Positions 128 through 18,005 of a stretch of DNA of 32,567 bases are shown piece after piece. A program made the position numbers and the translations under genes. Position 1 is the stretch's first letter. Each line of letters begins with the position of its first letter. The stretch covers positions 1 through 32,567 of the IMG/VR virus record IMGVR_UViG_3300035703_000300. One strand, 5' to 3'. Under the pieces are notes generated by a model. The model did not search any database. It saw only the letters and a program-made list of their open reading frames with translations, and had not been told where the DNA came from. Source of the DNA: a virus.

Positions 128-411
128 CGTCCGGACAGATCGGTGCCGATACGAGCGGGGCCTTCGCGGATCTCGTTCGCATCCTGCGAGAACTGTTCGC
201 GGTGCAACTCGACGAGGCCGGGGCGGGGATGACCGAGCGGCAACCCCTGTATGTCTTCGACGTGGCGGCAGGACGTGACGAGTTCACCCGGGCTCCGCGT
301 GGTCTGTTCTTCCGTCCGGTCGGGTCCGGTCGCGGGGTCGACGGCGGGCAGTCGCTGTCCGGGGTATCCTCGAACACGACGAACCGGGCGATGAGCAGGA
401 GGACCGGATGA
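1..411 (+). CDS. Tape measure protein, C-terminal part (gene continues from window end)
   Basis: This is the last 136 codons of the tape-measure gene that begins at 30740; the frame joins exactly across the circular junction to give about 703 residues in total. The segment is rich in Gly, Pro and Ala and has no recognisable enzymatic motif, as expected for the tail-tip end of a tape measure. Its TGA stop at 409-411 overlaps the ATG of the tail hub gene at 408, so the two are translationally coupled. The ATG at 37 is internal and is not a real start, because upstream sequence in the circular molecule is open. Confidence 0.9.
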   Translation, partial: QFGAAGAELEQGMLTVGGFRPEPLPGFVTGAPGQGILSPGTAPSGQIGADTSGAFADLVRILRELFAVQLDEAGAGMTERQPLYVFDVAAGRDEFTRAPRGLFFRPVGSGRGVDGGQSLSGVSSNTTNRAMSRRTG

Positions 412-3035
412 ACACGACCGATCGGAACGGGGTCGCCCTACCGTCGGACCTCGGCGAGATCATCGACTTCGTCTGGTCCGTCCGGATCGCGGCGACGAAC
501 GGGGTCTTGAACTCTTCGACGGGGTGGACCTACTACGAGATCCCGGCCGAGGCGGTCATCCAGCGTTCCCGGTCGACGGCCCTCGACGAAGGGACTTGGT
601 CTTTGACCCTCGGCATTCTGGCCGATGCCTTGCCGGACTTGACCGAGCCCCTCGCCTATTATCAACTCGAAGTCGACCTCGTCGACGACGCGGGGAACCA
701 GTGGCCGTATCACACAGGTCCGATCGATACGGTCTCGGAGTCCTGGACGCTCGACGGCGGTGCCCTCGTCCGGGTCTATGAGGTGCAGTCCTTCGGGGTG
801 TTGCAGCGGACCAAGGGGTTCGACTTCCTTTCTCTCAACGTCGTCCCTTTATCGGCCACCTTCTCGGGAACGATGACCGGGTTCGCGCAAGCGCACTATG
901 TCACGATGACCGGACCTTTCGCCGTCGGGACCCGGTATCTCATCCCCGGGACGAACGCAGGCGGGACCGTCGATATCACCGTCGGGACCGGGTCCTTCCC
1001 CGGGGTCATCGTCGACAATGACTCGGCCTTCGGTTCACCGCTTGTCTACGGGGTGGACTATACCGTCACGAACGCGGCCGGAACCGCGGTCCCCGCGGCC
1101 AACGAGCCCGCGTATCTGAACCCCCTTGTCGCGATCGCGGCGGGGACTTGGTATGTCCGGTTCTTCGCGGTCGCATACTGGGGCATCCTACAGAACTCCC
1201 CGGTCTCTCGACCGTTCTTCATCCGGGTTCCCCCCGGGGCCGTGACCTATACCTTCGGCACGACCAGGCCTAAGCGAACCATCGCGGATGACTTCGCCAC
1301 ACTCGCGGCCTCGGGCTGTACCACGACCGTGATCTCGGTCAAGGACCCCGAACCGTACAAGTCGGGAACCGGGGTCGTCGCGGTCACGTCCGGGCCGACC
1401 GAGTTCCTTGAATGGACCTCGGCATCGACCGGGGCCGTCGAGGTCCGGCAGATATCGTCCGTCGATGCCTCGGGCAACATCACGGTGACGGCCTTCTCTG
1501 CGGCCCCTGCCGAGGGGGACTTGATTCGCCTGGTCACGACTCAATCCTTCAGGGCGTGGCAACGGAACAACACGTCCTTCCCGTCTTACTCTGGGGTCAA
1601 TCCGGGCTTCTTCACGAGTTCGGCACGCGTCACGGAGTACCCGAAGGGTCTCTTCGAGCTCCTGCCGCAGTCCGGGATCATGCGGGCGAGATCTACTCGG
1701 CATTGGCTCACGGCCTCGACCGAGGTGTACGGTTATCAGCTTGAGTACCTGTCAGATACCGTCGGGTCAATCGGTGCGGACAACCGTTTAGAGTCGCTTT
1801 ACTATTACGTCCTGATCACGGCCACGAGCCTGTATGCCGCGGGTGACTTCGAGACCGGGAATGCCCTTCTCGCGTACTTCAAGAACTTCACGCGGACCCT
1901 GTCATCGGTCGACCAGGTCCTCGACGACATCGGCAAGGACGGCCTTCCCCCGAACGGGTACATCCACGACCGACCCGCGGGCAAGCTGCTTGTGTCGGCC
2001 TTCCGGCAGAAGACATCACCGGACCTTGTCCTTGGGAACGTCCTCGGCGTCCAGATCGGAAGCCTGCCGGAGCCTGTATCCTCGGTGACGGTCCGGTCTG
2101 TCGGTGACCCGCGGATCATCACGCCGGACCTCGAACCGACCCTTGCCGGGACTTGGACGAACGGGCAAAGGATCTTCGACGGGGTCCAGTCCGTCGACTA
2201 CGCCGAGGCCACGAGCGGGGCGTCGGTGACGTTCCGGATCAGGATGTCCGAGGGTGCCTTGTTCCCCCCGGTCTCGTCCTTCGAGATCATCGGCCGTCAA
2301 GGGGTCGTCGAGGTCTACGCGGAACGGTTCGACGGGACAAGCACGGCATCGAGGACCGGGTTCCTCGAGGGGTCCGGCTACTTCGTCTTGTCCGAGGGCA
2401 AGCCCGTGGTCATCGGCAAGCAGGAACTAGAGAACCTGTTCGCCCTTATCGGGGGCTTTCAAACTGCCGAGTGGCGCGTGACCATGAAGTTCTACGATGA
2501 CACGATGAACGGTACCAAGGCCGCTCAGGTCTACGAGATCCGGGCCTACTCAGAGATCGAGACGGGATGGTCCGCGTACCTGACAGATGATCTTGCGGAC
2601 ACGGCCGACACTGGGACCTACCCTACCGGGTGGAATACGCTCAATACCGAGGGCTTCGGGCCGTTCTGGTGGGTTCGGGATGTCGGTCGGGCCCGGTCCT
2701 TCCGGTATGCCTCATCGGACTACTTGAAACGGGTCCTTCCGTCCTACAACGCTTCATGGTCCTTGGCCGGATTCCGTCGCGAGATTGTCGACTTGACCCG
2801 GATCAATCAGGTCGAATGCAGGCGGATCGCGGAATCGTACCTTGACGAGTACGTCCGGCAGGGCCGGACCTACACGGTCTCGGCAATCCTCGACCCGAGG
2901 ATCGACCTCGGGGATACCGTCAACGTGACCCTCGGTGACGGGTCATCGCGGGATCTGTTCGTCTGGTCGATTGCGGACAGCGGGGCCCGCGAGGACTTCG
3001 AGGCGACGTATACCCTGCTCGACTACTCGGCGTGA
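408..3035 (+). CDS. Tail tip / baseplate hub protein
   Basis: An 875-residue protein directly downstream of the tape measure, the usual place for the distal tail and hub proteins. The N-terminal ~140 residues are beta-rich with a pattern (HTGPIDT, then VYEVQSFG) seen in hub or tail-tip proteins. The last ~80 residues contain a segment in which 'DPRIDLGDTVNVTL' precedes a short terminal beta domain, typical of gp27/Tal-like hubs that report position dependence. No peptidase or lysozyme motif is evident. The ATG at 408 overlaps the previous stop (ATGA). No separate distal tail protein gene is seen, so this large protein may combine those roles; that is inference. Family assignment rests on position and general pattern, not on a diagnostic motif. 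Confidence 0.75.
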   Translation: MNTTDRNGVALPSDLGEIIDFVWSVRIAATNGVLNSSTGWTYYEIPAEAVIQRSRSTALDEGTWSLTLGILADALPDLTEPLAYYQLEVDLVDDAGNQWPYHTGPIDTVSESWTLDGGALVRVYEVQSFGVLQRTKGFDFLSLNVVPLSATFSGTMTGFAQAHYVTMTGPFAVGTRYLIPGTNAGGTVDITVGTGSFPGVIVDNDSAFGSPLVYGVDYTVTNAAGTAVPAANEPAYLNPLVAIAAGTWYVRFFAVAYWGILQNSPVSRPFFIRVPPGAVTYTFGTTRPKRTIADDFATLAASGCTTTVISVKDPEPYKSGTGVVAVTSGPTEFLEWTSASTGAVEVRQISSVDASGNITVTAFSAAPAEGDLIRLVTTQSFRAWQRNNTSFPSYSGVNPGFFTSSARVTEYPKGLFELLPQSGIMRARSTRHWLTASTEVYGYQLEYLSDTVGSIGADNRLESLYYYVLITATSLYAAGDFETGNALLAYFKNFTRTLSSVDQVLDDIGKDGLPPNGYIHDRPAGKLLVSAFRQKTSPDLVLGNVLGVQIGSLPEPVSSVTVRSVGDPRIITPDLEPTLAGTWTNGQRIFDGVQSVDYAEATSGASVTFRIRMSEGALFPPVSSFEIIGRQGVVEVYAERFDGTSTASRTGFLEGSGYFVLSEGKPVVIGKQELENLFALIGGFQTAEWRVTMKFYDDTMNGTKAAQVYEIRAYSEIETGWSAYLTDDLADTADTGTYPTGWNTLNTEGFGPFWWVRDVGRARSFRYASSDYLKRVLPSYNASWSLAGFRREIVDLTRINQVECRRIAESYLDEYVRQGRTYTVSAILDPRIDLGDTVNVTLGDGSSRDLFVWSIADSGAREDFEATYTLLDYSA

Positions 3036-3077: not shown

Positions 3078-5591
3078 ATGACGCAACCCGCAGGACCGAT
3101 CTTGGGCGCGGCTCATCTCGACGACGGAATCAACACGCGATTCCGTTGGAACGAGGAGTCCGGCCTTGCCTCGCCCGCGTCCCGGGCCGTCGGCTCGATT
3201 CAACAGACCTTCGGCGGTCCTGTCCGGGTCGTGCCGACCCCGGTCACCTACCCCCCGAAGGACCTTGACCTTCCGGGGTATCTGCTACAGGTCAACGGCC
3301 TCGCCGAAGGATACGATCGGCTTGACCGTCTCTACAACCTTGCCGGGACCGCGGGGTCGGTCTCGATCTTGCAGATGGGTGCCCTCGGCCTCGAGGTCAT
3401 CCCCGAGACTCCGATCGTCGAACGGCTCAAGGCGCACCGAGTGCAACTTGACTTCTCGATGAAGGGGATCGCGATTCCTGCGACCTGGACCGCTCTCTTC
3501 GGAAGCTACATTGGGGCAGCGTACGGGATGGTGGCCAACGGCGAGTCATTGATCAATACGTCGGCCTTCGCCTTGGCTTCTGGGGCCTCTCCTAGCGTCA
3601 CGAACGCGGGCTCGGCCCCTACCCCTATTGTCCTGACCATCTCTGTCTCGGGGCCCCGTACAACGCGGTTCTATGTCCGATGCACGGCCCCGGGCTATAC
3701 CAAGCGGATCTCGGTCACCCCGACATCGGGCGGGGTCGTGAGCATCGGCGAGAAGGACGGTCTCTTCGTCCCACCCGGAGCCTCGGTCCTGCGATACGAG
3801 GAAGCGAGCGGGGCCTTGATCACGGGCACCATCGCGTCGTCCATCTATGGTACGCGGTGGCGATACGAAGGCCTCGATGATGCCTTGTCCGAAGTCGGCC
3901 CTGTCGTGGTTTACAACACCCGGCAGATGCGAGCATACGCGGCGACCTCGGCCTTCACGACTTCGGCAGGCCTGACGCTGTACGGGCCAGACGTGCCGCG
4001 CTTCGGCAACAGTGGCACCTTCGATGCCGCCGATGCCGGGCTGGTGGTGGAGCCTGACCGCACTAACCTGCTGCTGCAGTCTCAGGCACTCGGCACCACA
4101 TGGGTTCAGGCTGGCACAATCACGGTGACAAACAACAACAGCACCGCACCTGACGGAACGACCACGAGCACGCGCGTGCAGCTGACGGCAGGGGCAACAG
4201 GCAGTCTGTCGCAGGCTTCGCCTACGCTGACAGCTGCGCCGTATGTGTTGAGCTTCTACGCGCGGGGCACCGGCAGCTTCACCGTGGCGATGGGTGCCAT
4301 CCTGTCGGCGCAGGTTGTCACGCCCGGCACCAACTGGACACGGTACCAGTACCTTGTGACGGGCACGGCCGCGTCCTACACCGTGACATTTGCCGACAAT
4401 GCGCTGGCAGCAGCCGACGTGCAGCTGTGGGGCGTCCAGCTGGAGCTGGCCACGGGCCAGACCGCGGCGAACGCGACGAGCTACATCCCGACGACGACCA
4501 CGACTCAACAGAGGATGGCAGACTTTATCGGCATCCGTCCGGTCGAGAACTTGCTTGCATGGTCGAATCGGTTCGACAAGCAGACCGCATCGGCCACAAC
4601 CCGGGGGCTTTGGTATGTCCTGGGCGGAACAATAACAACAAGTCCTCGGCAGACCGGGCCTTCCGGCGTGACGGATGCCACCACCTTAACCGCTGCCGCC
4701 GGTGCTCAAGGCGTGAGCCAGCGGCTTTTAAATGCCGAGAATCTATCCGGCAAAACCGTCGTTTTCAGTGTCTGGATGAAGCTCAACAGTGCAACACCAG
4801 ACGCCGATGGCAGGATCGTTATTGAAGAAGTCGGAGCATCGGCAGGAACGACTACATCAAGCGCGGGAAACCTTGACGATCAATGGCGACGGATCACTGT
4901 TCAACGAAAGCTGGGAGCAGGGGTTACGGACGTTTTGGTTCAAATTCGTTGTGCGGCCGCTATTACCTACTACTTCGCTCATGCTCATGCGTGGGTAGGG
5001 TCCGAAGGAACGTATAATCTTGCATCCGCATCCACGGCAGCAATATCAGCCCCATACATCGAGACGCAGGCGAACCCGGTCTATCGGGCGAGGGGCTGGG
5101 AATGGCCGGACTGGTTGACTCAGAACGGGTACGTCGAGGCTGATGTCTGCTTGTCCGAGACCGCGAATCCGAATCTCTCGTCTCGGTTCTTGCTTGGCAA
5201 CGCTACAGGCCAGTTCACCCCTTCCTTGGCGGCCTTCTATATCGCGAGGCCGAGCAGCGATGCGACGGCGAGCAACACTTTGCAATTCAGCAAGACCCAT
5301 ACCACGGGGACTCCGGCGGTCAATCATTCTGTCGGGTATTCGGTCTTTGACGGGGTCTTTCGCAAGTACCGGATCGAGTGGACGAACTACACCATTTCAG
5401 GCGTCCGGACCGTTCAACTCAAGCTCTACATCGACGGGACTCTAGTCAACACGAACACTCCGTCCGCGACCTCGTGGGTGCGGCCCCCGAGCCTTGAGAT
5501 CATCAACGGATCGACGACCTTCCAGACCATGAAGAACATCGCGATCGGCTCCCCGGTACTTCCGGCGAACGCGATTCCGGCCCCGTACTAG
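3078..5591 (+). CDS. Tail fibre / receptor-binding protein with tandem carbohydrate-binding-like domains
   Basis: An 837-residue protein starting at ATG 3078 behind AAGGGA. Residues 1-300 look like a structural base. Two related beta-sandwich modules follow: one starts near residue 326 (RTNLLLQSQAL) and one near 487 (VENLLAWSNRF). Each opens with an 'NLL-x-x-S' box and has a later strand pattern like that of CBM or concanavalin-like domains in tail fibres. A laminin-G-like segment occupies about 675-837 (YVEADVCLS, YRIEWTNYTI, LKLYIDGTLV). Base use in about 3930-5060 differs from neighbours (more CTG, GCA and AT-rich codons), suggesting domain acquisition. The probable role is host-surface recognition at the tail tip. 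Receptor and host are unknown. Confidence 0.75.
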   Translation: MTQPAGPILGAAHLDDGINTRFRWNEESGLASPASRAVGSIQQTFGGPVRVVPTPVTYPPKDLDLPGYLLQVNGLAEGYDRLDRLYNLAGTAGSVSILQMGALGLEVIPETPIVERLKAHRVQLDFSMKGIAIPATWTALFGSYIGAAYGMVANGESLINTSAFALASGASPSVTNAGSAPTPIVLTISVSGPRTTRFYVRCTAPGYTKRISVTPTSGGVVSIGEKDGLFVPPGASVLRYEEASGALITGTIASSIYGTRWRYEGLDDALSEVGPVVVYNTRQMRAYAATSAFTTSAGLTLYGPDVPRFGNSGTFDAADAGLVVEPDRTNLLLQSQALGTTWVQAGTITVTNNNSTAPDGTTTSTRVQLTAGATGSLSQASPTLTAAPYVLSFYARGTGSFTVAMGAILSAQVVTPGTNWTRYQYLVTGTAASYTVTFADNALAAADVQLWGVQLELATGQTAANATSYIPTTTTTQQRMADFIGIRPVENLLAWSNRFDKQTASATTRGLWYVLGGTITTSPRQTGPSGVTDATTLTAAAGAQGVSQRLLNAENLSGKTVVFSVWMKLNSATPDADGRIVIEEVGASAGTTTSSAGNLDDQWRRITVQRKLGAGVTDVLVQIRCAAAITYYFAHAHAWVGSEGTYNLASASTAAISAPYIETQANPVYRARGWEWPDWLTQNGYVEADVCLSETANPNLSSRFLLGNATGQFTPSLAAFYIARPSSDATASNTLQFSKTHTTGTPAVNHSVGYSVFDGVFRKYRIEWTNYTISGVRTVQLKLYIDGTLVNTNTPSATSWVRPPSLEIINGSTTFQTMKNIAIGSPVLPANAIPAPY

Positions 5592-7906: not shown

Positions 7907-8577
7907 GAAGCATCCTCCCGACACAGGCGGTCCGGGATATCTACCAGGCGGTCAAGGCCCTCGACGCCGACCGGGTCATCATCGACCCCGAGAAGGACAT
8001 CGCGCATGTCTGGTCCCCCGATCGGGGGGCCGTCATCGGGGTGAAGTTGTGGAAGAAGGATGACCCGGGCGGGCCTGCACCGCTCGAGGTCATCGACCAG
8101 ACCATGGGGACTCCCGAGACCCCGCACGATGCCGAGCTCGGCAGGGCCGTGGCCGTCACGATCCTCCCCGGTCGCGAGGCCTCGCCGATGATCCGGTCTG
8201 CCCTTGCGGACTTGGCCGAGCGTCGCAGGATGGCGATGATCCACGGATCGAAGGACAAGTCTGTCTCCATCAGGATCGAAGGCGGTCACGTCGAGATCGG
8301 TCCGTTCCGGGTCGAGGCCCCGACGTGGGGGAACGGCGAGACCGTGGTCAACGGTGGCTATCTCATGGCCGCGATTGACCGCGCCTTCGGGATGCAGGCC
8401 TACGGCGTCCAGATCGAGATTCACGAGGGCGGCGTCCTTCGCATCGTGATGCAGTCCCCGAATCAGCAGACCGAGCCCGACACGCGTTGGCGCGGGCAAG
8501 GGGTCATCGCTCCCGTGGTCAATCGTGACCGCCTCGAGGGGCTCAGGAAGGCGGGTTCCGATGCCGCGAGGGCTTGA
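7903..8577 (+). CDS. Hypothetical protein, possible divergent sliding-clamp-like protein
   Basis: A 224-residue protein. The second half (about residues 120-190) has alternating strands with the motif 'VNGGYLMAAIDRAFG', then 'VQIEIHEGGVLRIVM'. This resembles the last clamp domain of DnaN (N-x-x-Y-L-x-x-A-L followed by strands ending in the PL-like rim). The match is short and I see no complete three-domain clamp, so it may be a reduced clamp, a clamp loader partner or unrelated. It is in the early operon just before the replication genes, which fits. Confidence in the clamp reading is low; confidence that it is a gene is high. Confidence 0.8.
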   Translation: MRSILPTQAVRDIYQAVKALDADRVIIDPEKDIAHVWSPDRGAVIGVKLWKKDDPGGPAPLEVIDQTMGTPETPHDAELGRAVAVTILPGREASPMIRSALADLAERRRMAMIHGSKDKSVSIRIEGGHVEIGPFRVEAPTWGNGETVVNGGYLMAAIDRAFGMQAYGVQIEIHEGGVLRIVMQSPNQQTEPDTRWRGQGVIAPVVNRDRLEGLRKAGSDAARA

Positions 8578-9223
8578 GTCCTGTAACGTTTGCGCTCGGC
8601 TGTTCTCGGTCCTTGTAGGCGGTCTCTGCGATGGGTGCATCCGAGCCCGGTCGGCGATCACCAAGGACAAGATCTGTTCGCGGTGCCACGTCGTCCGGCC
8701 CGTGACCGACTTCTACAAGCGGACCGACGGGTCGATCATGGCGACCTGCAAGCCGTGTTTCCTCGAGGCCGATCGTCGGTCGAAGGAAGCCCGGGCGAAG
8801 GCCGCGGCGAAGAAGGCCGAGCCGAAGCCCGCGGACCCTGTCCCGGGTCCTCTGGCCGGGCCGACCCGGGAAGAGATCCTCGCGGCTCGGGCCGAGGCCC
8901 GGTCTATCGCGGCTCGTGCCAGGATTGAGGCGGCGAAGGTCGCGGATTCAAGGCCCCGGCTCAAGAAGGGCGGCAGACCGCGCATCCGGCATCTCGAGGA
9001 CCCGATGCACACCTGCACGGCATGCCTCGAGACGCTGCCCGCGGAACTGTTCTATGTCAACGTGCGGACCGGGGCCGTCCATCCCCAGTGCAACGCCTGC
9101 ACCCGGCAACGGCAACGCAACCGGAAGAACACGAACGAGATCACCTATGTTCTCGGGAAGTTGCTTCTCTGGCGCATGGCCTATGACGCGGCATTTCCGA
9201 AGAACTTCTTGCAAACCCCTTGA
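8561..9223 (+). CDS. Multi-zinc-ribbon protein (endonuclease VII-like N-terminal repeats)
   Basis: A 220-residue protein starting at ATG 8561 behind AGGAAGG, overlapping the previous gene by 17 bases. Three paired-cysteine knuckles are visible: CNVC..CDGC near residues 6-26, CSRC..CKPC near 36-64 (the F-Y-K-R-T-D-G spacer is typical of phage 'recombination endonuclease' zinc heads) and CTAC..CNAC near 152-180. Between them lies an Ala/Glu/Lys-rich helical linker. No HNH catalytic core follows. A DNA- or RNA-binding scaffold or broken endonuclease are the options. It ends immediately before promoter P2. Confidence 0.75.
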   Translation: MPRGLESCNVCARLFSVLVGGLCDGCIRARSAITKDKICSRCHVVRPVTDFYKRTDGSIMATCKPCFLEADRRSKEARAKAAAKKAEPKPADPVPGPLAGPTREEILAARAEARSIAARARIEAAKVADSRPRLKKGGRPRIRHLEDPMHTCTACLETLPAELFYVNVRTGAVHPQCNACTRQRQRNRKNTNEITYVLGKLLLWRMAYDAAFPKNFLQTP

Positions 9224-9724: not shown

Positions 9725-10012
9725 ATGCCCGATATGATCCCCTCGCCGGAAGCAATCCGGCTGTCCAATGCCCTCGACAACCTCGGGGCCGCGGCCCTCG
9801 ACCTCGAGGGATTCCACGATGTCGCGGAACGCGCCTTGATCGATGTCGTCCGCAGGGTCTACGAGCTTGACCCGGGATCCGCGGCCGAGGTCTTCGGCGG
9901 TCTTGATCGGAACACGCTCAAGGCGATCATCCGGGCGTCGGTCCGCTACAGTGTCCCCGTCGCCTTCGTCGAATCGATCCTTGCAGCTAAGGAGGGCTTC
10001 CGTCGTGTCTAA
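9725..10012 (+). CDS. Hypothetical helical protein
   Basis: A 95-residue protein preceded by GAAGGAGG; ATG 9725 follows the previous stop by two bases. Predicted all-helical with the pattern 'ALDNLGAAALDLEGFHDVAERALIDVVRRVYELD'-like segments broken at Pro/Gly. The C-terminal half (NTLKAIIRASVRYSV) resembles a small four-helix bundle. I recognise no family. It overlaps the next gene's GTG by eight bases. Confidence 0.75.
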   Translation: MPDMIPSPEAIRLSNALDNLGAAALDLEGFHDVAERALIDVVRRVYELDPGSAAEVFGGLDRNTLKAIIRASVRYSVPVAFVESILAAKEGFRRV

Positions 10013-10361
10013 TTTCATCAAGGTAACGGGCGGGGATTACCCGCTCTTTCGAGTCGCGCTTTCGGTGACGGTCCTCGAAGACGTCGTTCAACTCCAGGTC
10101 ACGAGCGTTTTCCCGACTTCGGACGCATGGGCTATTCTGTCCTTCTGCCGTCCGGAAGAAGTAATCGTCAATGACCCCGCGGGCATGACCGAGATCACCG
10201 TCGGCGGCGTGACCTTGACCTATCAAAGCGGGATCTTCATCGGGAACAACGTCGCGGTGACCCCGACCCGGCTTGGCGAGTGGCACGACGTCTACGCCGA
10301 GGCCGTCGCATACCTGATCGATGAACTCGACATCGAGTGCGACGCGGAGGCAACGGTATGA
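10005..10361 (+). CDS. Hypothetical protein of the replication operon
   Basis: A 118-residue protein read from GTG 10005 with AAGGAGGG nine bases upstream. The sequence is beta-rich in the middle (ALSVTVLEDVVQLQV; EITVGGVTLTYQSGI; GNNVAVTPT) and ends with an acidic helix (VAYLIDELDIECDAEA). It might be a small OB- or jelly-roll-like fold, but no family is recognised. ATGA overlap with the nuclease gene that follows suggests a coupled accessory to the nuclease. Confidence 0.75.
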   Translation: MSNFIKVTGGDYPLFRVALSVTVLEDVVQLQVTSVFPTSDAWAILSFCRPEEVIVNDPAGMTEITVGGVTLTYQSGIFIGNNVAVTPTRLGEWHDVYAEAVAYLIDELDIECDAEATV

Positions 10362-11407
10362 CCCCGGACGACATCAAGGCCGCGTGCTCTCGGACCATGG
10401 ACCTTGCCCTCGACCGCCTCGGACAACGTGTCCGGGGCGAGTGGAAGGTCCGTCCGTCCGGGATTCATCGGTGCGACCGAGCCCAGGTCCTCGCGGCCCG
10501 ACTTGACCCGACTGAGATGATTCAGCTTCCCCGGAAGCTTGCCCTCGCCTTCGAGGTCGGGACGAAGACCCACGAGATCGTCCAAGGCAACCTGCCCGAG
10601 GTCCCGTCGGAAGAGACGTGGGACAGCGGGGTCATGACCGGGCATTCGGACCTGCGCTTGGTCCGGGAAGGTATCTTGCTCGATCTCAAGACGATCAATG
10701 TCGAAGGGTACGTCGAGGTATTCAAGAACGGGCCGAAGGCCGAGCACGTCGCACAGGTCACCTGGTACGCCGTGCAGGCCGGATGCGGGGCCGCGGCAAT
10801 CGTCTACATCAACAAGAACGGCACGATCCCCGCGGGGCTCAAGCCGAAGACCGGGGAACTTGACCCGACATATCAGGTCTTGCCGATCGAGGTCGACGAG
10901 ACGATTGCCGCGGGGATGGACAAAAAGGCCCATCGGATCTTGACGCACGTCGAGAGCGAAACGCTCCCGCGGTATGAACAGGTCCTCGAGTGCCGCTGGT
11001 GCGATCACAAGGCCGCATGTCACAAGGCCTTGGCCGACGATGCTCGGTCGACCGGGGCGCAGCGGTTCCGGCACATCAATACCAAGGTCGTCGGGACGAC
11101 GTTCCGGAATGGTGGCCCGGACTGGACGACTTGTGATGCCGGGTATCCGCTCGAGCTCGAATGGGACAAGGACAACCCGCACGGTCCCCGCAGGGCCGAC
11201 GGGACAGCGCAGGCCGTCAAGGTCCTGCTAGAGGGCGCGCATATCGGGTTCCTTCCGGCGACGGGGTCCCCGACCGCAGAGATCGTCTCGGATCACTTGG
11301 CAGCAGGCGGAACGGCCTCTTGCCGCGTGACCGAGTTGACCGGGGGTGGTCCCGGCAAAAACCACGGACTCAACATCGAGATCGAGCTTCACGGCTCGGA
11401 TCTGTAA
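10358..11407 (+). CDS. Cas4/RecB-type PD-(D/E)XK nuclease fused to a HIRAN-like domain
   Basis: A 349-residue protein (ATG 10358 with GGAGG upstream). Residues ~60-225 have the RecB-family core: G-H96-S-D98, then D109-L-K111 for metal and catalysis, then Q133-x3-Y137. Three cysteines near 212, 215 and 221 are typical of Cas4-like iron-sulphur ends, though only three are obvious in that cluster. From about 241 (TKVVGTTF) to 345 the sequence follows the HIRAN pattern: VVGTTF, then LELEWDKDNPHGP, a strand pair VKVLLEGAHIGFLP, and a final EIEL strand. HIRAN domains bind DNA ends or forks. It probably processes DNA ends in replication or recombination. The fusion is unusual in a phage. Confidence 0.85.
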   Translation: MTPDDIKAACSRTMDLALDRLGQRVRGEWKVRPSGIHRCDRAQVLAARLDPTEMIQLPRKLALAFEVGTKTHEIVQGNLPEVPSEETWDSGVMTGHSDLRLVREGILLDLKTINVEGYVEVFKNGPKAEHVAQVTWYAVQAGCGAAAIVYINKNGTIPAGLKPKTGELDPTYQVLPIEVDETIAAGMDKKAHRILTHVESETLPRYEQVLECRWCDHKAACHKALADDARSTGAQRFRHINTKVVGTTFRNGGPDWTTCDAGYPLELEWDKDNPHGPRRADGTAQAVKVLLEGAHIGFLPATGSPTAEIVSDHLAAGGTASCRVTELTGGGPGKNHGLNIEIELHGSDL

Positions 11408-11424
11408 GAAAGCAGGCAAAACAC

Positions 11425-11838
11425 ATGAAGATGAAGCGGACCACGACCTTCGCCCAGGTCACCCCGGGCACGTATCAGGCGATCTTGCACAACCTCGACG
11501 CGAAGACCATCACGACGGCCGAGGGACCGACCGATATCGTCGAGTGGGTTTTCCGGATTGCCGACGGCGATCACGAAGGCGACATGGTCTCGGGCTCGAC
11601 CTCGCAGGCGTGGAGCGAGAAGTCCAAGGCTTTTGCGTGGGCCAAGAGCCTGAACGGCAACAAGGCATGGGACGGCGTCGACGCGGACGGGGACCCGGAC
11701 ATCGCGGGCCTCGTCGGTCTGTCCTGCTTCGTCGAGGTCAAGGAAAAGGTCTCGGCCAACGGCACCGCAAGGACCAAGGTCGAAGCCGTTCTCCCCGATC
11801 TGTCGGCGAAGAAGGCCGCGCAGAAGATCCCGTTCTAG
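11425..11838 (+). CDS. Single-stranded DNA-binding-like protein with an SSB-type C-terminal tip
   Basis: A 137-residue protein from ATG 11425. The strands GTYQAILHNLDAK, IVEWVFRIADG and CFVEVKEKVSANG...TKVEAVL fit an OB fold. A central loop carries Lys/Ser-rich segments. The last residues are KIPF: the conserved tip of bacterial SSB that docks partner proteins is D-D-I-P-F, so Ile-Pro-Phe is kept while the acidic stretch is basic here. It lies between the nuclease and the primase-helicase. A role in coating single strands is inferred from fold pattern and context; another OB protein of replication is possible. Confidence 0.7.
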   Translation: MKMKRTTTFAQVTPGTYQAILHNLDAKTITTAEGPTDIVEWVFRIADGDHEGDMVSGSTSQAWSEKSKAFAWAKSLNGNKAWDGVDADGDPDIAGLVGLSCFVEVKEKVSANGTARTKVEAVLPDLSAKKAAQKIPF

Positions 11839-11920: not shown

Positions 11921-14089
11921 ATGTCTAGATTGTACCCCATTGAATCCCGTTTGAGAGAGCTCCAGTCCGTCGCCGGGCTCGGGCAAGTCTTCATCGCGGT
12001 GCACCATGTCAGGCCCGACGGACGGTGCACTTGCGGCCGTCCCGACTGCGAGTCTCAAGGCAAGCATCCGATCGACCGGGGATGGCAGGCCCCCGGTGCC
12101 CAGCACGACTCGACCAAGGCGGCCCAGTGGTACCGGGACGGCCGGAACGCGGGCATCGTGACCGGGGCTGATACAGGGCTCTTGTTGCTCGATCTCGACA
12201 ATGAGGACGCGGTCGTCTGGTTCGAGAACCGCAACCAGGACCGACCCTTCTTCATGGTCAGGACCGGGCGCGGGGCGCATGTCTACTACCAGCACCCGGG
12301 ATGGGACGTCCGGAACTCGGCGGGTCTCGTGGCCTCGGGCGTCGATGTCCGCGGCGAGCGGGGCTTTGTCGTGGCCCCGGGGTCAATCCACAAGACAGGC
12401 CGCATGTACGCGGTCGATGTCGAGTCGGCCGACGGACCGCAACCCGTCCCGGCGTGGCTCGACGAGGCCCTTCGCAACCTGAAGAAACCGGAAAACGCAG
12501 GGTCTAAGGTACGGGCAGACGGGGACGGGGTCATCCGCGAGGGCGGCCGGAATCAAGCGGTCTGGTCTCTCGGTAGCTCGATGCGGGCGGCGGGTCTCGG
12601 GTACGAGGCCATCCTTGCGGCTCTTCGTTCGACGAATGAGACGGCGGTCATTCCCCCGTTGCCGGACCGAGTCATCGTCGACATGGCCGAACGCATCGTC
12701 GATGGGTTCGCCCCGGGCACCGCGGCACGGACTGTCCGGGTCGGTCTGGCCTCGGGGCTGAGGATGCCGGAGCCCGAGGGCGACGGGAAGAAGGACAAGA
12801 TCGAGCCTATCAGCGTGGCCGCGGCATTCCTTGAGGCCGTCGAGGACCGACCCTTCGTCCTACACAAGGGCTTTTGGTACAGGTTCAACGGGAAGTGCTA
12901 CGAGGCGACAACGGAAGAGGACGTCGGGCACGAGGTGCTCGGAAGGATGCAGCAGGCCCCTGACCTCGCGAGCAAGTGCAAGCGGGCCTTCGTGGGCGAC
13001 GTCGTGGCCAACATCGCAACCCGGGTCCGCATCCCGGCCTCGGTCAACCATGGCGAGTGGATCGAGGGCGGGCCACTGTCCATCGTTGCCCGGAACGGGA
13101 TCGTCGATGTCAAGGCGTACCTCGAGGAGCGGCCCGACTGGTTGCGGCCGCACGACCCGGGGCTATTGTCGACGGTTTGTGTGCCCTTCGAGGTCGACCC
13201 GGATGCGGACTGCCCGTTGTGGCTGTCGGTCATCGAGAAGATCGTCCCGGACCCGGGGACCCGCGATCAACTCAAGCGATGGTTCGGGCTCAATCTGATT
13301 CCGGACGTGTCCTACCAGAAGGCCGCGGTTCTTGTCGGCGACGGGTCGAACGGCAAGTCGACCGTCCTACTCATCCTTCAAGAGCTCGTAGGGCGGGGGA
13401 ACTACTCGACGGTGCCTCTTGAACGGTTCGGGGAACGGTTCGACCTCGCGGCGATGGTCGGCAAGGCGGCGAACATCGCGCACGAGATGGGCGAGCTCGA
13501 CAAGGCGGCCGAGGGGGTCTTGAAGCAACTGGTCTCGGGCGAGGAAATGACCTTCGAGCGGAAGCACCGCGACCCCTATCAGGCTGTCCCGACCGCTCGG
13601 TTGACCTTCTCGACGAACGTCCTTCCTCGGTTCTCGGACCGGACCGATGCCATCTGGCGGCGACTGATGATCTTCCCCTTCAACACGAAGATTCGCGAAG
13701 AGGACAAGGACTACAGCATCCTCGACAAGCTGCGGGCGGAGCTACCCGGGATCTTTAACTGGGCGATTGACGGCCTCGACCTGCTCAAGGCCGACGGGCT
13801 CGGCGAGTCGCTTGAGATGAGCAACGTCAAGACCCGTTACCGTGAAGCCGTAAATCCGTTCCTTCAGTGGGTCGAGGACAGGGTCGATGATACAGGCCTC
13901 GGCACCATCGAGACAGCGCGACTCCATGAGGACTATCGGTCTTGGTGTGGGTCCGCCGGGTACCATCCCCTCGCCGCTCGGACCTTCGAGTCGGAGCTCG
14001 AACGGCACTTCCGGCGAGAGGTGACCAGGCCGCGCGAGGGGTCCGGAAGTCGGCCGAGAGTCATCGGCGGTCTTCGTCTCGCTAGATAG
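11921..14089 (+). CDS. PrimPol-type primase / SF3 helicase (phage-plasmid replication protein)
   Basis: A 722-residue replication protein from ATG 11921 (AGAAGAGG upstream). N-terminal AEP primase-polymerase domain, residues ~15-190: early cysteines (CTCGRPDC), catalytic D91-L-D93, 'TGRGAHVYY' and the 'GVDVRGERGFVVAPGS' box. A D5-like linker region spans ~290-450. The C-terminal SF3 helicase has Walker A GDGSNGKST (473-481), a Walker B-like segment ANIAHEMGELD, motif C in 'LTFSTNVLPRF' and the arginine finger in 'DAIWRRLMIFPF'. It should open the origin, prime and perhaps extend DNA. No phage DNA polymerase was seen, so this protein is central. It ends at 14089 next to a candidate origin. Confidence 0.93.
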   Translation: MSRLYPIESRLRELQSVAGLGQVFIAVHHVRPDGRCTCGRPDCESQGKHPIDRGWQAPGAQHDSTKAAQWYRDGRNAGIVTGADTGLLLLDLDNEDAVVWFENRNQDRPFFMVRTGRGAHVYYQHPGWDVRNSAGLVASGVDVRGERGFVVAPGSIHKTGRMYAVDVESADGPQPVPAWLDEALRNLKKPENAGSKVRADGDGVIREGGRNQAVWSLGSSMRAAGLGYEAILAALRSTNETAVIPPLPDRVIVDMAERIVDGFAPGTAARTVRVGLASGLRMPEPEGDGKKDKIEPISVAAAFLEAVEDRPFVLHKGFWYRFNGKCYEATTEEDVGHEVLGRMQQAPDLASKCKRAFVGDVVANIATRVRIPASVNHGEWIEGGPLSIVARNGIVDVKAYLEERPDWLRPHDPGLLSTVCVPFEVDPDADCPLWLSVIEKIVPDPGTRDQLKRWFGLNLIPDVSYQKAAVLVGDGSNGKSTVLLILQELVGRGNYSTVPLERFGERFDLAAMVGKAANIAHEMGELDKAAEGVLKQLVSGEEMTFERKHRDPYQAVPTARLTFSTNVLPRFSDRTDAIWRRLMIFPFNTKIREEDKDYSILDKLRAELPGIFNWAIDGLDLLKADGLGESLEMSNVKTRYREAVNPFLQWVEDRVDDTGLGTIETARLHEDYRSWCGSAGYHPLAARTFESELERHFRREVTRPREGSGSRPRVIGGLRLAR

Positions 14090-15191: not shown

Positions 15192-15207
15192 CGGGGGGTG
15201 CTAGGGG

Positions 15208-15441
15208 ATGGGTGGATCGGTCAAGTCCCGCTCTGGGGGCAACCAGCCGCGGCAGAATCGAAACCAGAGGCACGACGGGTTCCCGTGGCAGTGCCTCGGG
15301 TGCGGACAGTTCATGACGGCGAGCCATCATCACTGCCGCGCGTGCGGGTTCCACGAGATCAGCGCAAGCCGGGGGCCGACGACCTGCCGCGGGTGCGGAA
15401 AGCGGCTGAGCGACGATCTGAAAACGATCTGGAACCCCTGA
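15208..15441 (+). CDS. Small zinc-ribbon protein
   Basis: A 77-residue protein (ATG 15208). After a basic tail of ~25 residues come three CxxC knuckles: CLGC near 29-32, CRAC near 43-46 and CRGC near 59-62. Two would form one zinc ribbon and the third is unpaired or shared. Basic N-terminus suggests nucleic-acid binding. The overlapping frame (from 15198) has an Arg/Pro-rich composition and is treated as a shadow, with the RusA gene beginning later. Confidence 0.65.
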   Translation: MGGSVKSRSGGNQPRQNRNQRHDGFPWQCLGCGQFMTASHHHCRACGFHEISASRGPTTCRGCGKRLSDDLKTIWNP

Positions 15442-15464
15442 CGGTTGCCCTCGAAGACGGGGTC

Positions 15465-15821
15465 TTGACCATTCGCTCGGACGGGATGCCGATCCGGGTA
15501 AAGCCCCGGCCTCGGACGACCCAGACCGGACATGTCTACATGCCCGCGGATTATATGGCTTGGAAGCGAACCATCGCGGGAAAGGTGGCCTTCCGGTTGC
15601 AAGAGTGCCCGGTTTTCCGGCAAGGTGGTATCAGGCTGGACCTCTGGATCTGGTCAGGAAGGGGAGACGTCGACAATCTAGCGGGGGGCGTCATGGACGC
15701 GCTGAACGGGATCGCGTGGCGAGATGATGACCAGATAACGGACCTGACAGTCCGGAAGCGGCCGAGGACGAAGACTGCCCCGCGGTGGATGGCAATCGTC
15801 CAGGCGGCCACCGATGCTTAA
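15465..15821 (+). CDS. rusA: RusA-family Holliday junction resolvase
   Basis: A 118-residue enzyme expected to cut four-way DNA junctions, for recombination or to tidy DNA for packaging. The signature is clear: G-D68-V-D70-N-L, D78-A-L-N-G and then D87-D-D-Q-I with K/R-rich flanks (VRKRPRTK). The acidic residues match the three catalytic aspartates of RusA. Start: I chose TTG 15465 because it places the first strand (TIRSDGMPIRVKPRPR) at the N-terminus as in the family, at the usual ~120 residues. ATG 15486 is the alternative. An ORF extension back to 15198 would add an unrelated arginine-rich stretch that overlaps the zinc-ribbon gene. Overlaps the next gene by eight bases. Confidence 0.88.
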   Translation: MTIRSDGMPIRVKPRPRTTQTGHVYMPADYMAWKRTIAGKVAFRLQECPVFRQGGIRLDLWIWSGRGDVDNLAGGVMDALNGIAWRDDDQITDLTVRKRPRTKTAPRWMAIVQAATDA

Positions 15822-16340: not shown

Positions 16341-16689
16341 GAGCAAGCGGACCCCCGAGACCCGCGAGCGGATCTTGATGCTTTTGCGGGCGGGCAACTA
16401 TCACAAGGAAGCGTTCGGCGCGGCGGGTCTGTCGGCTGATACGTTCTACCAGTGGATCAAGGATGACCCCGATTTTTCCGATGCCGTACAAAAGGCCGAG
16501 GCCGAGGCGGTTGCCTTCCACATGGCGCAGATACTCAAGGCGTCGCAGGGTGGTGCATGGCAGGCCTCGGCGTGGTATCTCGAACGGAAGCATCCGGACC
16601 GATTCGGTCGTCAAGACCGCAGACCCGAGGGTGCCGATAAGACCGAGGTCGTCATCAAGTGGGCCGATGAAGAAGGGAGCCGGGATTGA
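16333..16689 (+). CDS. terS: Terminase small subunit
   Basis: A 118-residue protein from ATG 16333 (GAGGGAAGG upstream). Residues ~9-45 form a helix-turn-helix (RERILMLLRAGNYHKEAFGAA-type pattern, then LSADTFYQWIKDDPDF), the usual DNA-recognition head of small terminases; the central helix (VQKAEAEAVAFHMAQILKA) makes oligomer contacts; the C-terminus includes the 'AWYLERKHPDRFGR' box common in this family. It would recognise the packaging site and feed DNA to TerL. The large terminase is two genes downstream. Stop overlaps the next TTG (TTGA). Confidence 0.88.
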   Translation: MAKSKRTPETRERILMLLRAGNYHKEAFGAAGLSADTFYQWIKDDPDFSDAVQKAEAEAVAFHMAQILKASQGGAWQASAWYLERKHPDRFGRQDRRPEGADKTEVVIKWADEEGSRD

Positions 16690-18005
16690 ACGTCAATTTG
16701 CCCGAAGAGATCGTGATGAGGCGGGTCGAGGACTTGATCCCGTATGCGAGGAACTCGAGGACCCATTCCCCCGAGCAGGTGGCAAAGTTGGCCGGGGCGA
16801 TCAAGGAGTTCGGCTGGACGGTCCCGGTCCTGGTCGACAAGGACGGGGTCATCGTGGCCGGGCATGGCAGGGTGATGGCCGCTCGGAAGCTCGGTCTTGA
16901 TGTCGTCCCGACCATTGTCCTCGAGCACCTGTCCGAGGCCCAGAAGCGGGCCTATGTCATCGCGGACAATCGTCTTGCCCTTGATGCCGGATGGGATGAC
17001 GAGATGCTCAAGGTCGAGCTCGGCGAGTTGACGGGGGAAGGGTTCGATCTGGCCTTGACCGGATTCTCTGAGGAGGAGATCAACCGACTAACTCAATCGG
17101 TCGAAGCGCTCCCCCCGGCAGGAGACGAGAACGCGATCCCTGATGTTCAAGATGATCCGATTAGCAAGCCCGGGGATGTCTGGCTTCTTGGCGATCATCG
17201 CGTCGTTTGCGGAGACTCAACGGACCCGTCATCCTTTGCTAAGGCTGCAAATGGGAATGTCGCAGACATTCTTTTTACAAGTCCCCCTTATGCACTCGGC
17301 GAAAACATCAAGTTAAGCGGAAACAAGTCTATCAAGTTTAGTCAAACGAGCATCTCGCAATCGAGAAAGAAGTCTATAAGCGCATACTCATCTCACGAAG
17401 ACAGCGCGGAAGAATGGCCTAATCTGATGTCCGGCTGGTGGTCTGCCGCGCAAGGGTCAGTTCAAGACGCGATGTTCGTCAATGTTCAACTCTTGGCGAA
17501 CAACAAGCGCAATCTCTGGCGATGGGTAGCGGATCGCATTGACCATCTGGTTGATGTCGTAACATGGGACAAGGGAAATGCAGCTCCGCAGATACAACAA
17601 GGCGTCTTGACGAATGCTGCCGAGTGGATTCTTGTCTTCGGCAAGCATGGCGCGTCTCGGGTGATTCCGTTCTCGTCTTGGCAAGGCAACGTTACTACTG
17701 TTTACACCGGACCGCCGCAACGCGGGAATGAGTATGCGGCGATCCACGCGGCAACGTTCCCAATGCACTTGCCCGAATGGATTCTCGGAACGCTGGCCGA
17801 TAAGTCAAGATCGGTCATTGACCCGTTCCTCGGAACCGGAACTACATTGATCGCGGCCGAGAAGCTCGGGAAAACTTGTTACGGGATTGAGATCGATCCT
17901 CGCTATGTTGATGTCATCGTCAAGAGATGGCAAGACTACTCAGGCAAGGAAGCGGTCCTAGAATCAACCGGGCGAACATTCCGCGAGGAAGGCGGGGTAG
18001 GATGA
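16686..18005 (+). CDS. ParB-nuclease-like domain fused to a DNA methyltransferase (adenine or N4-cytosine)
   Basis: A 439-residue fusion read from TTG 16686. Residues 10-110 are a ParB/Srx-like domain, with G59-H60-G61-R62 and AARKLG. The methyltransferase follows: catalytic T198-S-P-P-Y202 precedes the SAM motif D379-P-F-L-G-T-G-T-T, which is the beta-class order used for N6-adenine or N4-cytosine marking. The region between (about 205-375) is the likely target-recognition domain. No paired restriction nuclease is nearby, so it is probably an orphan that protects phage DNA or marks it. About 17150-17960 is more AT-rich and uses different codons, so this domain seems imported. The start overlap suggests low initiation by coupling. 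Confidence 0.9.
   Translation: MNVNLPEEIVMRRVEDLIPYARNSRTHSPEQVAKLAGAIKEFGWTVPVLVDKDGVIVAGHGRVMAARKLGLDVVPTIVLEHLSEAQKRAYVIADNRLALDAGWDDEMLKVELGELTGEGFDLALTGFSEEEINRLTQSVEALPPAGDENAIPDVQDDPISKPGDVWLLGDHRVVCGDSTDPSSFAKAANGNVADILFTSPPYALGENIKLSGNKSIKFSQTSISQSRKKSISAYSSHEDSAEEWPNLMSGWWSAAQGSVQDAMFVNVQLLANNKRNLWRWVADRIDHLVDVVTWDKGNAAPQIQQGVLTNAAEWILVFGKHGASRVIPFSSWQGNVTTVYTGPPQRGNEYAAIHAATFPMHLPEWILGTLADKSRSVIDPFLGTGTTLIAAEKLGKTCYGIEIDPRYVDVIVKRWQDYSGKEAVLESTGRTFREEGGVG

Follow-up and report, generated by a model that had tools for sequence, protein, structure and literature searches.

A phage Cas4-like nuclease joined to a divergent HIRAN domain

Introduction

Cas4 nucleases carry one N-terminal and three C-terminal cysteines that hold an Fe-S cluster (PMC3466216, PMC4283603), and the Cas4 protein SSO0001, with its four Fe-S-holding cysteines, is a 5'-3' exonuclease on single-stranded DNA (PMC3466216). 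The HIRAN domain is known from a different setting. In HLTF it binds the 3' end of single-stranded DNA, with stacking by Y72 and Y93 (PMC4666394, PMC11237066). The beta2-beta3 loop of the domain helps single-stranded DNA binding in HLTF and differs in Rad5, where 3'-end specificity is absent; the Rad5 HIRAN domain, which retains only 2 of the 10 HLTF contact residues, binds PCNA, and binds single-stranded DNA without a 3'-OH preference (PMC7804152). Phages that encode Cas4 and HIRAN as separate proteins have been described, and our literature search found no description of the two fused. Here we describe a phage gene in which a Cas4-like nuclease and a HIRAN domain are joined in one protein.

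Results

The fusion gene and its relatives

The stretch of DNA analysed, referred to below as the window, is a 32,567-base virus record with 62.5% G+C. It encodes endolysin, terminase, portal, capsid, connector and tail genes and is that of a tailed phage. The gene under study and its two domains are as follows.

10358..11407, + strand: Cas4-like nuclease-HIRAN fusion protein, 349 aa (from the ORF, its family matches and syntenic relatives)
10397..11041, + strand: PD-(D/E)XK (Cas4/RecB-type) nuclease domain, residues 14-228 (from PHROG matches and invariant residues)
11063..11395, + strand: HIRAN domain, residues 236-346 (from profile, fold and hhalign)

The reading frame is uninterrupted from the ATG at 10358 to the stop codon ending at 11407. 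Relatives of the protein were found on six IMG/VR contigs at 71-84% identity (the match being the same for L004 and L005); coverage of the protein is full or almost full in five of the six, and the sixth is truncated where its contig ends. The fusion is present in all six, and the order of the genes around it is shared. Nei-Gojobori estimates of dN/dS lie at about 0.22-0.28 in the nuclease half, centring near 0.24, and span 0.08-0.27 in the C-terminal one; all are below 0.3, so both halves are maintained by purifying selection. The original prediction of a Cas4-like nuclease fused to a HIRAN-like domain is thus confirmed as a real and conserved ORF, and its two-part identity is borne out by the PHROG matches, fold, profile and hhalign results given below.

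Identity among the relatives is 85-96% in the HIRAN half versus 67-79% in the nuclease half. We considered whether a frame overlapping the gene at 11161-11838 might cause the strong conservation of the HIRAN half, and rejected this, as most comparisons show no more than a modest drop in synonymous divergence there. A start for that frame at 11161 was likewise set aside; the downstream gene more plausibly begins at 11425, its homologue in relative L017 being 138 aa long. As a separate observation, two contigs (L017, 3300035670_001316, and L018, 3300034073_001898) match the window at 99% in the endolysin and 93% in the primase and at only 72% in the nuclease-HIRAN gene, a disparity that points to mosaic exchange affecting the region of this gene and its neighbours upstream.

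The nuclease half

Residues 14-228 matched phrog_1706 ("CRISPR/Cas system associated") at 1.1e-16 and phrog_1990 ("Cas4-domain exonuclease") at 4.2e-11, with a marginal match only to the Pfam family PDDEXK_1. The RecB-type motifs with QxxxY are complete, and H72, D98, D109-x-K111 and Q133-x3-Y137 are unchanged across six proteins of the fusion family. Only three of the usual four cysteines had been noticed originally; C39 had been overlooked, and four are in fact conserved. C39, C212, C215 and C221, laid out as one N-terminal and three C-terminal residues, are unchanged in all six family proteins and, together with K111, Q133 and Y137, are also kept in two distant, unrelated nucleases, a Bacillus phage Cas4 and a prophage nuclease. 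From this pattern the four cysteines are putative Fe-S ligands, and nuclease activity with 5'-3' polarity would be expected by analogy with the Cas4 family of SSO0001.

The HIRAN domain

Assignment of the C-terminal part required more than a standard family search, in that PF08797 did not match this domain and an NCBIfam search of the fusion protein returned no match. Nevertheless, profile-profile comparison with phage HIRAN proteins gave a probability of 90.7%, with 0.5% for the nuclease half as a control, and hhalign with a larger HIRAN set gave 98.6%. We also built an HMM on 87 HIRAN domains, taken from 78 bacterial loci, from phages and from HLTF, with the domain under study left out; it can be read as a HIRAN profile because PF08797 is present in 36 of the 36 bacterial proteins put through Pfam. 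This HMM scored 35-38 bits with five complete family proteins (37 bits for the window protein) and 25.8 bits with the truncated family member; across 2000 shuffles of the C-terminal domain the highest score was 6.0 bits. The profile search proposed originally was therefore silent in its Pfam form and positive by profile-profile comparison and the 87-domain HMM.

The proposed structure prediction agreed. An AlphaFold model of the C-terminal domain alone (pLDDT 72.8, pTM 0.68) was closest to the HIRAN domains of lp_0118 (3k2y; Z 12.2 over 97 residues), HLTF (Z 9.6 over 96 residues; Z 9.6-10 overall) and Rad5 (Z 8.6). Structures not annotated as HIRAN reached a Z of at most 6.8 (HamB of Hachiman at 6.8, Cas12f-type barrels at 5.7). 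In an AF2 model of the full-length protein (mean pLDDT 60.7, pTM 0.46), in which the relative placement of the domains is unreliable, lp_0118, HLTF and Rad5 were again the top structural matches for the same region. The predicted fold is a six-stranded beta-barrel with helices as in the HLTF HIRAN domain, and the profile score and hhalign agree with the HIRAN signature (G, aromatic, L, N-P-[HYF]-D-x-N-A, G-[YF]-x-P). Instead of a missing HIRAN match and a fold of another kind, then, we found 35-38 bits with the profile and a Z of 12.2. The position first proposed, residues 241-345, was about right, with the boundaries better drawn at 236-346. Fold, profile-profile comparison and the HIRAN profile together establish these residues as a genuine HIRAN domain, and as a divergent one, since the Asn of the motif aligns with a Gln and PF08797 does not match.

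The silence of PF08797, along with the presence of the fusion in one lineage only, might still be taken to mean that the fusion arose from an error of assembly or a frameshift, or that its C-terminal part is not HIRAN. Several independent metagenome contigs at the identities given above all carry the fusion, however, dN/dS is low in both halves, and fold and profile support HIRAN. Given the independent contigs and the profile score, we regard this reading as refuted and its remaining probability as negligible.

HIRAN residues and DNA contacts

The core signature reads N273-P274-H275, then D281 after a five-residue GPRRx loop insert, and G297-F298-L299-P300. Eleven HIRAN positions are kept (G246, F249, L267, N273, P274, H275, D281, A286, G297, F298 and P300), and three are changed: the Arg of L.REP to W269, the motif Asn to Q285, and the basic residue after GY.P to A301. 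When aligned to the HLTF pocket (Y72, Y93, N90/N91), the phage domain has F249, H275 and D272/N273, so that N91 and aromatic-type residues are kept; the HLTF row is misaligned at its N-terminal end, and the match of Y72 to F249 is taken from a shared V-V-G. HLTF R71 aligns with T248 and is thus lost. The GPRRx insert, which lies in the beta2-beta3 loop and brings two Arg, is invariant in the family except for its last residue. The net charge of the domain is -4, and 29% of HIRAN domains stand at -4 or lower. DNA binding by the phage domain is likely, and by analogy with HLTF it may include DNA ends; 3'-end specificity cannot be assumed, given that Rad5 HIRAN binds single-stranded DNA without it.

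The Rad5 precedent also suggests a different use of the domain, as mainly a docking platform that binds single-stranded DNA regardless of its end, or binds a replication protein, and so tethers the nuclease to the replisome. The PCNA binding of Rad5 HIRAN, the several changed contact positions together with the two-Arg loop insert, and the greater conservation of the HIRAN half, as expected of an interaction surface, all fit this. Against it, the positions of the aromatic pair (F249, H275), N273 and D281 are retained, and no docking partner is known. We consider it a serious but rather unlikely explanation.

Gene neighbourhood

The genes around the fusion gene were annotated as follows.

8525..9223, + strand: HNH / endonuclease VII-like protein, upstream (phrog_2340 2.6e-14, phrog_1035 4e-12)
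10005..10361, + strand: 118-aa protein without assigned function, its start fixed by homologues of 115-118 aa
11425..11838, + strand: candidate phage single-stranded DNA-binding protein (DUF669 / phrog_378 type), 137 aa, ending in ...KIPF
11921..14089, + strand: primase-helicase (phrog_1156 DNA primase, 8.5e-86)
15198..15821, + strand: RusA-like Holliday junction resolvase (phrog_140, 2.6e-15)

The 118-aa upstream protein had no family match. Its stop codon overlaps the ATG of the fusion gene (ATGA), and the two genes are therefore probably translationally coupled. For the downstream SSB-like protein, relative L017 matched phrog_378 ("single strand DNA binding protein") at 9.4e-4 and the window copy matched phrog_378 at 0.017 and DUF669 at 0.018, below the curated cut-off; these matches are suggestive of a single-stranded DNA-binding protein, a weak call. 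Judged from these annotations, the fusion gene reads as sitting in a replication/recombination cluster, in which no annealing recombinase was recognised.

Other observations in the window concern genes outside this argument. The 8525-9223 protein is strongly basic (+23), and its N-terminal stretch also matches a Lar-like restriction alleviation family. The gene at 16686-18005, which lies between those for the small and the large terminase, encodes a DNA methyltransferase with a ParB-like domain at its N-terminus (phrog_498 3.5e-103, PF01555 3.1e-25, ParB_N 1.4e-5). Two long proteins of 875 and 837 aa (408-3035 and 3078-5591) have no PHROG matches; in Pfam the first matches nothing and the second reaches DUF6330 only below threshold.

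No cas1, cas2 or other cas genes were found among the scanned ORFs of the window and no CRISPR array-like repeat in its 32.6 kb, and for these reasons we read the nuclease as a phage "solo" Cas4-like enzyme and not as a CRISPR Cas4. The same results bear on a use against host DNA or CRISPR adaptation, raised in the original prediction, in which the fusion would attack host DNA or supply decoy fragments to host CRISPR adaptation. In favour of this idea, host-derived spacers have been linked with Campylobacter phages that encode a Cas4-like protein (PMC4283603), and adaptation involves Cas4 itself. Nevertheless, besides the absence of array and cas genes, the fusion gene lies inside the replication cluster with SSB-like, primase-helicase and RusA neighbours, and for Stenotrophomonas phage DLP4, which has a Cas4-type nuclease of another family, a search of the host found no CRISPR array and cas4 was unexpressed in the lysogen (PMC6469090). 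The idea thus fared poorly, and we hold it to be highly improbable.

Distribution of nuclease-HIRAN fusions

A search of 50,697 phage records gave neither near nor protein-level relatives of the fusion, and tblastn with the C-terminal domain alone gave chance matches only. No relatives were found in genome_contigs, nor in a sample of 794 Pseudomonadota and Actinomycetota genomes, the latter a weak result with no positive control. Prophage nuclease L120 was rejected as a fusion relative, having a different C-terminus and no HIRAN domain. A Cas4-like nuclease joined to HIRAN was seen in 0 of the 78 bacterial and 0 of the 37 other viral HIRAN ORFs checked, in surveys that searched a limited library by short sequence patterns; a fusion not found there may still exist. 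The HIRAN survey pattern was N-P-H-D-x-N-A, which inflates motif conservation among the retrieved proteins and misses HIRAN domains without the motif, such as the fusion's own.

Other nuclease-HIRAN fusions were found, with DUF790, RecJ and T5orf172. One example is on a viral contig (L141:1993-3285), where a DUF790-type PD-(D/E)XK nuclease carries a C-terminal HIRAN domain; another viral-contig protein (L142:2647-3696) has HIRAN followed by BRCT. The repeated attachment of HIRAN to unrelated nuclease types is consistent with end-sensing control, in which the domain would serve as a regulatory lid that occupies or senses ends, keeps the nuclease in check pending binding of the correct junction, and protects phage DNA from the phage's own nuclease. 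No direct support for such a lid was found, however, and the modelled placement of the two domains is unreliable; we judge it improbable.

Discussion

The reading that we prefer, and to which we give an even chance, is that the protein is a phage exonuclease of the Cas4/AddB family, with HIRAN as a permanent attachment, and that it acts in the phage's own replication and recombination. Targeting to DNA ends or forks, as the original prediction had it, is plausible by analogy with described HIRAN domains. During phage replication, HIRAN would deliver the nuclease to DNA ends, gaps or forks with exposed single-stranded DNA. There it would hold the opposite 3'-ended single strand, or nearby single-stranded DNA, while the Cas4-like nuclease would degrade single-stranded DNA 5' to 3', trimming the 5' strand and leaving a 3' tail. 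The SSB-like protein from the adjacent gene could coat this tail, which would then serve in annealing or in priming by the replication machinery. A recombination role is favoured by the SSB-like, primase-helicase, RusA and EndoVII-like neighbours, syntenic in the relatives, and it is from these neighbours that we infer the link. Weighing against this reading are the changed HIRAN residues (W269, Q285, A301, and T248 and H275 at HLTF R71 and Y93), the acidic net charge of the domain, the Rad5 precedent for binding without regard to the 3' end, the weak SSB call and the failure to recognise an annealing recombinase in the cluster. A bolder claim, possible though somewhat doubtful, is that the protein represents an undescribed class of end-gripping exonuclease, in which HIRAN would hold the 3' strand of a DNA end and the Cas4-type nuclease would resect that end's 5' strand, with no helicase motor involved.

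HIRAN work so far has been mostly on eukaryotic fork remodellers and less on the many HIRAN proteins of bacteria and phages. A HIRAN domain on a nuclease family of understood chemistry offers a direct biochemical handle on the choice of end and strand. As divergent HIRAN domains escape PF08797, links between nucleases and HIRAN may also be undercounted.

Among described proteins, the phage solo Cas4-like nucleases (phrog_1706/phrog_1990; Campylobacter phage CP8 Cas4 and Bacillus phage KLEB27-3 gp092) share their family with the fusion, and have the same motif order and the same one N-terminal and three C-terminal cysteines (PMC4283603). The CP8 (243 aa) and KLEB27-3 (289 aa) nucleases stop at or soon after the third C-terminal Cys, whereas the fusion continues for about 130 residues beyond it, including the HIRAN domain. 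The DUF790, RecJ and T5orf172 fusions resemble the phage protein in having HIRAN attached to a nuclease, but the nuclease types are unrelated, and a Cas4-like enzyme with the four-Cys staple is not among them. In human HLTF and yeast Rad5, a HIRAN domain of the same predicted fold is attached to a SWI2/SNF2 translocase with RING; the phage domain departs from theirs at several DNA-contact residues and has a new loop insert. Phages of the Bradleyvirinae (DLP4, A1432 and relatives such as PaMx28 and AXL1) have a stand-alone HIRAN protein, a Cas4-type nuclease and an SSB-type protein as separate genes of one genome, with a nuclease of a different family (DUF2800 / phrog_69). That nuclease and HIRAN are encoded separately there and in one protein here supports, without proving, that these parts work together. 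The nuclease-HIRAN fusion thus combines known parts in a new way, within a single small lineage of phages.
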